Assembly: GCA_021794175.1 (NCBI GenBank)
Contig: JAJYRI010000007.1
Location: 1-59,693 of the forward strand
Direction: 5' to 3'
DNA from: a bacterium
GTDB lineage: Bacteria; Vulcanimicrobiota; Vulcanimicrobiia; Vulcanimicrobiales; Vulcanimicrobiaceae
DNA length: 59,693 nucleotides
The notes beneath the pieces are model-generated. The model saw only the letters and a list, made by a program, of their open reading frames with translations, ran no database searches and was not told the DNA's origin. The translations under genes and the position numbers were made by a program. Below, in pieces: positions 41,012 through 44,094 of this stretch. Position 1 is the first letter of the stretch. Each line of letters begins with the position of its first letter.

Positions 41012-41494
41012 CTAGCTTCCGATACCGACGATCTGCTGTGTCGAGAACAGCAAGGGGTTGCCGTTATTATCGGTGAGCGGTTGGCCGTTGCTGCCGTTCA
41101 GTGTAAAGAACGGTTGGCCGTTCTGCACCGTGATGGAAGCGACGGTTCCGGTGACGGTCGAGGTGCCGCCGGCGGCGCTCGTGGCGCCGGTATTGGCGGT
41201 CACGGTTTTCCCCAGCAGTGCCGAGGCTTGCATGACGCCGAAATTCGACGTAAACGCTTGGAACGAGCTGGCGAGATTCGTCTGCGCGGAGAGCGCTTGG
41301 AACTGCGCGAGCTGCGTTACCGATGCCGTCGGATCTTGCGGCGCCGTTGGATCTTGATTTTGCAGTTCTGCGGTCAGCAGTTGCAAGAACGTGTTGAGGC
41401 CGACGTCGGACGATTTGCTCGTCGGCGCGGCGTTCGAGGGTTGTGCGATCAACGAGTTAATCGGTAACGTCGTTGAATTCACGGGTGTCGCCAT
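41012..41494 (-). CDS. flgD: Flagellar hook-cap scaffold FlgD
   Basis: 160 residues. FlgD caps the growing hook. The N-terminal part is typical: FLQLLTAELQNQDPTAPQD, SVTQLAQFQALSAQTNL, ASALLGKTVTA. The C-terminal Tudor/Fn3 part is short. The ATG at 41494 has AAGGAG 6 bases upstream; the longer frame to 41776 is a shadow of fliK. Confidence 0.94.
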   Translation of the reverse strand: MATPVNSTTLPINSLIAQPSNAAPTSKSSDVGLNTFLQLLTAELQNQDPTAPQDPTASVTQLAQFQALSAQTNLASSFQAFTSNFGVMQASALLGKTVTANTGATSAAGGTSTVTGTVASITVQNGQPFFTLNGSNGQPLTDNNGNPLLFSTQQIVGIGS

Positions 41495-41504
41495 TGTTTT
41501 CTCC

Positions 41505-43238
41505 TTAGGCGAGATAGTTGTAGAGCGCATTTCCGTCGGCGGAGAGCATCCCCGCGTTCGAAGATACGAGCGCATCGGTCGGCTGTGCCGCCGGTGCACC
41601 GAGTTCGTGAATCGTGTACCGACGACCGAGGCCGGGGCCCTTGCCGTCGCTTCCGCGATCCTGTTGCTTCCCGCCGGAGACATCGACCGAGAACCCGGTG
41701 AGTTTGAGACCGGAATCGGCGAGGCTACGAGCGAGTTGTTGATGGTTGGCGAGCAACGCGGTGCGCGTGTCGGCATTCTGCGCGACGACGTTGGCAGTGA
41801 CGTTGGTGCCGCTCACCGTAAGTTTGACCGCGACCTCCCCGAGATGCTCGGGGACGAGTTTGATCTGCATCTGCGAACTGCCGTCGGAGGCGGTGCGCAA
41901 CTGCATACCGGCGATCATTTGCTCGGCGAGTGCTTGTACGTCGAGCGGTTGCGAGGTAGGTGCGGCAGCGCTCGGCGCTGCGGCGTTCGCTGCACCATGC
42001 AGCGATGGAAGCGCGAAACCAAGCGCCGCGTTCGACGTCTGGTTTCCGAAGGAGGACGAATCGCGTCCGGTCGACGAGCCGAAGCCCGAGGAGAGGTGCG
42101 AACCGGTCGAGCCCGCGCCGCCCTCGGCTGCAGCCGTCAACATCGCCGTTAAGCGAAGCATCTGGCCGGAATCGAGTTGGCCCGAACTCGGGGCCCCGGT
42201 GAGACCCGCGCTTGCGAAGCTCGCCGTTGCAAAGGTTGCCGGCGAGGACGGTTCTCCGGCGGCGGCTCGCGCCGCAGTCAGGGTCGCGTCGGTACCGGCC
42301 GCGCGGGCGATCATGCGCCCGAGCAGGTCGAGGTTCTGCCCCGCGTTTGCGCTCGGGGCTACGCTTGGAGCGCTGAAACTCGGGTTGCGAACCGGCGGCT
42401 CCGGTGCCGCTCCCGCATGCGGGAGTGGAGGCGGTGGAGGCGCCGCGAAATTCGCGAGCGAGGTCAGCGTCGGGAGCGCAGCCGGAGCGCTCGGCGCAGG
42501 CATGGCCTTTGTCGGCTCCGGGGAGATGGCGCCCGTCGTTTGCACGAGCGGGGAGGCCGTGGGTAGGCCGGCACTCGAGACGAGGTTGCTCGCGGCGGTT
42601 CGGCCGGAAGCGATCGCGTTCGAGGCGGCGTGGTTCGGAAGCAACGAGAGCAACGACGAAAGAGCCTCGTCGATCGCGGGCGTACTCGCAGTCGGCGGGG
42701 GTGTCGTCGTCGTTGGGGCCGGGGGTTCTTTCGCCGATATGGCGTCCAAGAGCGTACCCGAGATCTCGTTCTTCTGCCCCTTGGTGGTCGTCTGCCCTCG
42801 CGCTAGTCCGTTAACGATTCCGGTGAAGCGTTGCACGAGGGTTGCAGCTTCTTGCTGCGCCGACGTCGGTGGCGCGGTACCGGGTGGAGAGAGCGCGCTG
42901 GCAAAGGCAGTCGCGAATTGCTTCGCTACTGCATCTCTCGCGGCAGGCGGAGCTTTGGCAGCCGTGGCCGCCGCTTGCCCGATCTGCATCGAGAGCGTGT
43001 TGATGAATTCGGCAGGGGTGATACCGCTTGCAAAAAGCTGTGTTAGTACAGTCGTCGGATCCTGAGGCGCCGACGCCTTCGCTGCTTTCAAACGAGCTTC
43101 CAGTGCCGCCGCGAAGGAACCACCGAAGATATCGGTGCCGCCGCGAAGCGAGGGAAGACCGAGCGATTTGAGCAGGGCTTGAAGGCTAATTGCGCCCGTG
43201 GATGCAGCCGTACCGCTGCCGAGAAGTGGAGTTGTTAT
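41505..43238 (-). CDS. fliK: Hook-length control protein FliK (ATA start proposed)
   Basis: 577 residues from ATA 43238, or 528 from TTG 43091. FliK measures the hook and switches export through FlhB. A Pro/Ala/Thr-rich N-terminal ruler (to about residue 420) precedes the C-terminal Flg_hook domain: MQIKLVPEHLGEVAVKLTV, then DTRTALLANHQQLARSLADSGL. The frame is open to a TGA directly above ATA 43238, and the extra 49 residues look protein-like (ISLQALLKSLGLPSLRGG, FGGSFAAALEARLKAAKA). GGAAGGAGG lies 9 bases before ATA; no ATG, GTG or TTG exists between it and 43091. Confidence 0.85.
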   Translation of the reverse strand: MTTPLLGSGTAASTGAISLQALLKSLGLPSLRGGTDIFGGSFAAALEARLKAAKASAPQDPTTVLTQLFASGITPAEFINTLSMQIGQAAATAAKAPPAARDAVAKQFATAFASALSPPGTAPPTSAQQEAATLVQRFTGIVNGLARGQTTTKGQKNEISGTLLDAISAKEPPAPTTTTPPPTASTPAIDEALSSLLSLLPNHAASNAIASGRTAASNLVSSAGLPTASPLVQTTGAISPEPTKAMPAPSAPAALPTLTSLANFAAPPPPPLPHAGAAPEPPVRNPSFSAPSVAPSANAGQNLDLLGRMIARAAGTDATLTAARAAAGEPSSPATFATASFASAGLTGAPSSGQLDSGQMLRLTAMLTAAAEGGAGSTGSHLSSGFGSSTGRDSSSFGNQTSNAALGFALPSLHGAANAAAPSAAAPTSQPLDVQALAEQMIAGMQLRTASDGSSQMQIKLVPEHLGEVAVKLTVSGTNVTANVVAQNADTRTALLANHQQLARSLADSGLKLTGFSVDVSGGKQQDRGSDGKGPGLGRRYTIHELGAPAAQPTDALVSSNAGMLSADGNALYNYLA

Positions 43239-43247
43239 TTTCTGTCA

Positions 43248-43256
43248 CCTCCTTCC
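43248..43256 (-). promoter_or_regulatory. Strong Shine-Dalgarno site of fliK
   Basis: GGAAGGAGG on the minus strand, 9 bases ahead of ATA 43238. It is the only good ribosome site in the region and has no other purpose, since the next standard start lies 157 bases further on. Confidence 0.75.
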
Positions 43257-43275
43257 GAGTAGACTCCAGTTCGGG

Positions 43276-44094
43276 TTATCGGCCGGCAAGCAGCGGCTCC
43301 TTAACCGCCTCGCGCAGAGCGTCGAGGCGCCGGGTGAAGGCGGCGAACTCCTCGGGCGCGAGCGCCTGCTCGGCATCGGAGAGTGCCTCCTCGGGTTGCG
43401 GATGGACCTCGAGAATCGCCCCATCGAGCCCGGCGGCAGCGGCGGCGAGCGCCATCGGCACGACGAGCGAGCGCCGACCGGTTGCATGGCTGGGATCGAC
43501 GATGACCGGCAGATGGGTGAGCTCGCGAAGCCGTAACGCACCGGCGAGATCGAAGAGGTTGCGCGTGTGCCGATCGAAGCCGCGCAGCCCGCGTTCGCAG
43601 AGCACGACCTGCGCGTTGCCTTCCATCAAGATGTACTCAGCGGCGGCGAGCAACTCGTCGAGCGTCGCGGCGGGGCCGCGTTTGAGGAGGATCGGTTTCC
43701 CGGTGCGCGCCGCCGCCCGCAACAAGGCGACGTTCTGCATGTTGCGCGCACCGATCTGCAGCATCGCAACGCGCGCCGCGGTGAAGGGAACGTCTTCGAC
43801 CGCGAGCACCTCGACGACCGTCGGCAAGGCATGCCGTGCGGCGGCGCGCTCGATCAGCAGCACCCCTTCATCGCCGAGCCCTTGGAAGCTATACGGCGAG
43901 GTGCGCGGCTTATAGGCCCCGCCGCGGAGCATCGCCGCTCCACCCGCTGCAAGCAGCTCCGCCGCCCGCTCGATCTGCTGCTCGCTTTCGACCGCACAAG
44001 GACCACCGATCGCGACGAACCCGCCATCGCCGAAGCGTACGCCGCCGACTTCGACGACGCTTCGTTGCCCTTTGAATGCTGTAAGTGGATACAC
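43276..44094 (-). CDS. aroF: DAHP synthase, type I-beta core
   Basis: 272 residues from GTG 44094 with GGAG 9 bases upstream. It joins phosphoenolpyruvate and erythrose-4-phosphate, the first step to aromatic amino acids. The TIM-barrel signatures are present: GPCAVES, LRGGAYKPRTSPYSFQGLG, LQIGARNMQN, KPILLKRG, CERGLRGFD and VDPSHATGRR. The length fits a bare barrel: the N-terminal ferredoxin-like or chorismate-mutase domain used by other I-beta enzymes for feedback inhibition is missing. Control may therefore be mainly by the Trp leader upstream. It ends 37 bases before the fliK start. Confidence 0.95.
   Translation of the reverse strand: MYPLTAFKGQRSVVEVGGVRFGDGGFVAIGGPCAVESEQQIERAAELLAAGGAAMLRGGAYKPRTSPYSFQGLGDEGVLLIERAAARHALPTVVEVLAVEDVPFTAARVAMLQIGARNMQNVALLRAAARTGKPILLKRGPAATLDELLAAAEYILMEGNAQVVLCERGLRGFDRHTRNLFDLAGALRLRELTHLPVIVDPSHATGRRSLVVPMALAAAAAGLDGAILEVHPQPEEALSDAEQALAPEEFAAFTRRLDALREAVKEPLLAGR

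Follow-up and report, generated by a model that had tools for sequence, protein, structure and literature searches.

An ATA codon behind an extended Shine-Dalgarno sequence as the probable start of fliK in Candidatus Eremiobacterota

Introduction

Very few genes with start codons other than ATG, GTG or TTG have been characterised. The fliK gene on a 59,693-nucleotide stretch of DNA from an uncultured member of Candidatus Eremiobacterota (the window) raises the question of where its translation begins and, if it begins at a non-canonical codon, what such a start would do. An earlier note, made from the sequence alone, had proposed ATA 43238 as the probable start of fliK. We have therefore compared the locus with its relatives, all of the named ones being metagenome-assembled genomes (MAGs), and considered what the start codon could mean for the dosage of FliK.

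Results

The fliK locus and its ribosome-binding site

The window FliK carries a C-terminal Flg_hook domain (Pfam PF02120; residues 449-526, E = 1.2e-20, 73.6 bits with a cut-off of 29.8), and full-length orthologues in seven other species show 81-86% identity from residue 1. The gene lies between a DAHP synthase gene (43276-44094) on one side and flgD, a Flagellar_put gene and flgE on the other, and the FlgD, Flagellar_put and FlgE-type domains directly downstream make this a flagellar gene neighbourhood. From ATA 43238 the frame is uninterrupted up to a stop codon at 41507..41505 on the minus strand. The features of the locus are as follows.

43245..43254, minus strand: extended Shine-Dalgarno sequence (SD) AAGGAGGTGA, invariant in eight congeners
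43245..43247, minus strand: in-frame TGA two codons before ATA, invariant in eight congeners
43236..43238, minus strand: fliK start codon ATA, present in all eight congeners
41505..43238, minus strand: fliK coding region read from ATA, an open frame of 577 codons plus stop
43089..43091, minus strand: TTG, first canonical start codon in frame (codon 50), rejected as start
41012..41494, minus strand: flgD, the next gene after fliK, with an ATG start at 41494 and an FlgD domain; internal control

A second, more divergent Flg_hook (PF02120) protein is encoded elsewhere (G000 contig C135:10478-10681). Most flagellated relatives have an equivalent, and the open frames for the most part span about 560-740 codons. 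The cultivated relative Vulcanimicrobium has no flagella (PMC9758169).

On the minus strand the sequence around the start reads ...GCCGATAACCCGAACTGGAGTCTACTCGGAAGGAGGTGACAGAAAATAACAACTCCACTTCTC..., and a predicted peptide of the extended FliK is TTPLLGSGTAASTGAISLQALLK. The ribosome site that the earlier note had placed 9 bases before the ATA is present as GGAAGGAGG at 43256..43248, with exactly 9 bases between, but it was understated, the true SD being the longer, 10-base AAGGAGGTGA (43254..43245), which matches the complement of the canonical anti-SD (usual 16S 3' end) exactly over all 10 bases and lies 6 bases before ATA 43238. By itself the 9-mer would be no great surprise in 60 kb, with 0.37 occurrences expected and at least one in 30 of 100 shuffles. 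The in-frame TGA described as directly preceding the ATA does exist (43247..43245) but stands two codons upstream, as the codons before ATA are TGA, CAG and AAA, and it rules out an upstream start in the fliK frame. It had also been stated correctly that no ATG, GTG or TTG follows in frame until TTG 43091, 49 codons on.

Conservation among congeners

The same-genus set comprised ten genomes, eight of which hold the 5' end of fliK (G000, G001, G002, G004, G005, G006, G008 and G009), while in the other two fliK is truncated at a contig end or was not found. Several of the eight correspond to separate public MAGs, which are named Candidatus Eremiobacterota or 'bacterium' (DAHUYY010000048, JABEUX010000081, JAJZED010000018, JAJYRH010000007 and others). 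The SD and ATA are at the same place in all eight congeners with a fliK 5' end, so the inspection of this codon in orthologues that had been suggested earlier returned ATA each time. The pattern AAGGAGGTGA-N6-ATA occurs exactly once per genome in eight of the ten congeneric genomes, always at fliK, and its reversed control pattern had zero occurrences in these genomes. In G008 (1.19 Mb, 918 called genes) there are eight SD matches of at least 9 nt, of which just the one at fliK coincides with the start of a called gene.

All eight congeners share AAGGAGGTGA-CAGAA[A/C]-ATA within a block of 46 invariant bases broken at a single A/C site, with 29 leader bases before this site and 16-17 bases, including ATA and codons 2-4, after it. 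Because only 58.5% of the fourfold sites in fliK are invariant in the same eight species, this block around the SD and ATA is constrained; with neutral and independent sites its chance would be about 2e-11. For the third base of ATA taken singly, the neutral probability of no change across all eight species is about 0.59, which is not significant. Codons 2-4 (ACA ACT CCA; 43235..43227, minus strand) are invariant in the eight species even at third positions and are possibly part of the initiation region.

Further downstream, 42 positions in codons 1-49 vary among the eight species, 25 of them third positions (binomial p = 4e-4 versus one third), with no stop and no frameshift and with change beginning at codon 5. 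Judged by this pattern of substitution, the stretch from ATA is evolving as coding sequence. As for RNA structure that could hide the SD, the leader folds no better than shuffles (z = -0.56 and +0.93). A predicted hairpin covering the SD was rejected, as its A-U pair at the third base of codon 5 is broken by T to C in three congeners.

Upstream of the SD, a promoter motif was predicted.

43276..43303, minus strand: predicted sigma28-type promoter motif TAAG-N16-GCCGATAA, crossing the end of the DAHP synthase gene and overlapping its stop codon

This motif resembles the sigma28 (FliA) consensus. For 30 of 39 genes a similar motif precedes the fliK SD at a distance of up to 130 nt; random stretches of 130 nt taken from these loci have one in 2% of cases. 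If transcription started as this predicted motif implies, its start would lie near 43268-43270 and the fliK leader would be about 31 nt long.

Alternative starts, sequencing error and the initiator tRNA

ATA and ATG differ by a single base, and the earlier note had named a sequencing error at 43236 as the other way to explain the codon. An identical ATA is present in eight species, some of them represented by public MAGs that were assembled separately (DAHUYY, JABEUX and several of the JAJ series), which excludes a sequencing or assembly error here and leaves this explanation with a negligible probability.

Translation could instead begin at a downstream canonical codon, at TTG 43091 or later. 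This TTG is the first in-frame ATG, GTG or TTG, and automatic gene callers are expected to pick it. However, it has no good SD, as had already been pointed out, and it is also not conserved, being CTG in G008 and G004. The first canonical codon varies among the congeners (codon 22, 37, 46 or 50), none near the N-terminus is shared by all eight, and the first that is common to all lies far inside the gene, at alignment column 135. Beginning at TTG 43091 would also cost FliK its conserved coding N-terminus together with the FxxxΦ motif described below. We consider a downstream start very unlikely.

Less probable again is a start at GTG 43248, inside the SD, followed after at most a few codons by a +1 shift to the frame of fliK. 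The GTG is conserved, and all eight congeners keep its frame open for 20 codons or more, but it is not in the fliK frame, it overlaps the SD and no SD stands before it at a good spacing, and in G000 its frame ends at TAG after 20 codons. The third-position-biased change in the ATA frame, which starts at codon 5, also speaks against it, and in most other genera the GTG in the SD stands in a different frame relation.

An altered initiator tRNA was rejected. The initiator tRNA anticodon stem-loop GGGCTCATAACCC, with the ordinary CAU anticodon, is present in 7 of 10 congeneric genomes, and a variant with a UAU anticodon had no match in the congeneric genomes. An ARAGORN scan that covered most of the G008 sequence returned no Met tRNA of any kind. 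It did predict a tRNA-Sec (anticodon TCA) at L112:5679-5772 of G008, which suggests the use of selenocysteine in the genus.

Export motif at the FliK N-terminus

The gate recognition motif of flagellar export substrates has the form FxxxΦ, and the region that a TTG start would remove holds two of them.

43101..43127, minus strand: two overlapping FxxxΦ export-gate motifs, FGGSF and FAAAL, predicted from sequence at residues 38-46 counted from ATA

An FxxxΦ motif starts at residues 29-49 in all 39 of 39 SD-anchored FliK proteins, with 16 expected from shuffled residues, and this is as true of ATG starters as of non-canonical starters. This similar distance from the assigned starts supports both the ATA in the window and the start assignments in its relatives. 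Substrates of early flagellar export require both a gate recognition motif (residues 36-40 in Salmonella FlgD) and an extreme N-terminus that is hydrophobic, and the export of FliK is attenuated when its tip loses non-polar residues (PMC8983047). The predicted N-terminus of the window FliK is of this kind, with a non-polar tip and an FxxxΦ gate motif.

Taking together the ATA in eight of eight congeners, the invariant 10-nt SD, the coding-type substitution from codon 5 and the FxxxΦ motif upstream of TTG 43091, the proposal that ATA is the fliK start is strongly supported, and on this comparative evidence we hold with high confidence that ATA 43238 is the real start.

fliK starts across the family and its sister family

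PF02120 searches of the family (99 genomes) and the class (117 genomes) gave a high-scoring fliK in 46 genomes. Starts were assigned from a strong SD and the reading frame in 40 assignable genes; those of G003, G022, G083, G091 and G118 (contig ends) and of G010 (ATC or a later ATG) were excluded. The 40 SD-anchored starts are ATA (9), ATG (9), CTG (7), TTG (6), ACG (4), GTG (3), ATC (1) and ATT (1), so that 22 genes in 7 of 17 genera have a non-canonical start. ATA is found in the eight congeners and in genus g49, and CTG in g9 only; ACG occurs in three genes of g21 and one of g28, ATC in g11 and ATT in g44. An in-frame TAG precedes the ATA of G088, and there is no canonical codon for the next 151 codons. 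Non-canonical starts are common to all sampled species of whole genera, with 8, 7 and 3 species, and a tree built from FliK C-termini and FlgD needs at least five changes between canonical and non-canonical states, four of them forced by well-supported branches.

Some of these assignments are less certain, namely ACG in g28 (directly followed by ATA) and in g21, and also ATT in G061 (where an in-frame GTG lies inside the SD). In vitro, IF3 tolerates non-Watson-Crick pairs at the third codon position only (PMC10158994). ACG and CTG mispair at the second and first position, respectively, which these data disfavour, so some assignments could be off by a codon, and the ACG and CTG starts are the more surprising claims.

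In the same loci flgD has a well-placed ATG in 43 of 43 cases. The contrast between the fliK and flgD starts gave a Fisher p of 1.6e-9 by gene, a value that ignores relatedness, and of 0.003 by genus.

infC and other non-canonical starts in the lineage

The infC gene, encoding IF3, starts ATA-Ala-Arg/Lys-Pro/Leu-Leu-Arg in 20 of 21 genomes, one of them with an extra Ala, and with ATC in the remaining one (G022); the infC frame of G002 runs open further upstream. The presence of ATA at infC in 20 of 21 genomes means that ATA very probably functions as a start codon in this lineage, and autoregulation of IF3 through the infC AUA is predicted from sequence in Eremiobacterota. The earlier statement that ATA starts are very rare in bacteria therefore needs a local adjustment, with infC ATA in nearly all of these genomes and a non-canonical fliK in 7 of 17 genera.

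Among 387 orthologue pairs of G008 and G002, the candidates for shared non-canonical starts were fliK, rsfS (CTG), a PhoH-like gene (CTG or GTT) and infC; the screen overlooks any gene whose non-canonical start is soon followed by a canonical codon. A genome-wide relaxation of start usage was rejected on this handful of candidates: non-canonical starts are rare and not general, yet not confined to fliK. The apparent CTG start of rsfS, the ribosomal silencing factor gene (AAGGGAAGG-TTTCCA-CTG TCA GCA CTC), is found on G008 contig C3 (minus strand) and in the G002 orthologue. In the PhoH-like gene (G008 contig C13, minus strand; G002 orthologue on contig C1) conserved coding sequence immediately follows an in-frame stop and about 18 codons pass before any canonical start; CTG or GTT may be the start.

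Discussion

Our main reading, to which we give a probability of roughly 0.8, is that fliK has a real but attenuated, IF3-sensitive initiation site like those of infC, Streptomyces sigR and Staphylococcus aureus ccpN. Translation would start from the AUA at 43238..43236, where the extended SD AAGGAGGUGA (43254..43245) would hold the 30S subunit with AUA in the P site, and the ordinary initiator tRNA (anticodon CAU) would read AUA with a third-position mismatch and insert fMet. As IF3 should discriminate against this pairing, initiation at fliK would reach only a fraction of the rate at AUG, and a shortage of IF3 should increase fliK output. With flgD keeping its ATG, the cell would make less of the hook-length ruler than of the hook-cap protein. 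FliK is a secreted ruler of which few copies are used per flagellum, and this may be the reason for a low dosage.

Whether the weak start has been selected or merely tolerated is a separate matter. A strong SD could make the start codon nearly irrelevant, so that near-cognate codons turn over neutrally; the ATA would then be real and its low output unselected. Such drift would be consistent with the SD having about the same strength in ATG relatives as in those with a non-canonical start, and therefore not tracking the codon, and with the turnover of codon identity (ATA, ATC, ATT, ACG, CTG, TTG, GTG and ATG), for which at least four to five changes between canonical and non-canonical states are needed on the tree. 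However, the adjoining flgD has kept ATG in all 43 loci, the non-canonical starts are genus-wide in the sampled species (8, 7 and 3), and it is in general extremely rare for AUG to be replaced by CUG or AUU, with 3 cases among 61,358 reconstructed AUG starts (PMC5622118). Permissive drift is thus a serious but less probable explanation, and selected attenuation, which these comparisons favour to some degree, is the likelier of the two.

A broader proposal, which we put forward tentatively and would rate at slightly below even odds, is that lineage-wide selection in Eremiobacterota favours a weak, IF3-gated start of fliK, with the non-AUG state retained while the codon itself turns over (ATA, ATC, ATT, ACG and CTG) behind a near-perfect SD. 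The dose of the ruler relative to flgD would then be set at initiation and could follow the level of IF3. If this is true, the set would include natural ACG starts, which would be exceptional in bacteria.

For annotation, gene callers limited to ATG, GTG and TTG would trim FliK by 49 residues, with the loss of its predicted export signal. The fliK series also provides a natural experiment, in which one gene has a near-constant strong SD and eight different start codons, with an ATG-only neighbour as a control. It bears on whether non-AUG starts are licensed by extended SDs, whether low dosage has been selected through them and whether ruler dosage responds to IF3.

The type of mechanism that we propose is known from other systems. 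Non-canonical infC starts are AUU in E. coli, AUC in Streptomyces and AUA in S. aureus (PMC5472188, PMC13009471). Like infC, fliK combines a near-cognate start codon with the ordinary initiator tRNA and, presumably, repression by IF3. It differs in that infC autoregulates, whereas the product of fliK, a flagellar ruler, has no means of feeding back on IF3, and in that the fliK SD is far stronger than the sequences before infC in these Eremiobacterota.

In Streptomyces, sigR has a GTC start behind the extended ribosome-binding site AGGAGGTG, and its repression by IF3, with the partner made in excess, was shown experimentally (PMC5472188). The arrangement is similar at fliK, with an extended ribosome-binding site, a non-canonical start and a neighbouring partner gene, flgD. 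The gene and the codon are different, however, sigR and rsrA forming a sigma/anti-sigma pair, and repression of fliK by IF3 is suggested by analogy.

The closest architecture is that of the S. aureus infC, ccpN (AUA) and cvfC1 (AUU) genes with their extended SDs, where AUA and AUU reporters gave about 10% (up to 30%) of the AUG output (PMC13009471). As at ccpN and cvfC1, an extended SD followed by AUA or AUU is kept across species; ccpN has one and the same conserved codon in S. aureus and B. subtilis, whereas at fliK it is the non-AUG state that recurs while the codon turns over. With the infC, sigR and ccpN type, fliK has in common a non-canonical start codon (by comparative evidence), a suitably spaced extended SD, conservation across species and a CAU initiator tRNA. 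The type of mechanism is therefore known, and what is new is the gene, the recurrence across the lineage and the turnover between near-cognate codons.
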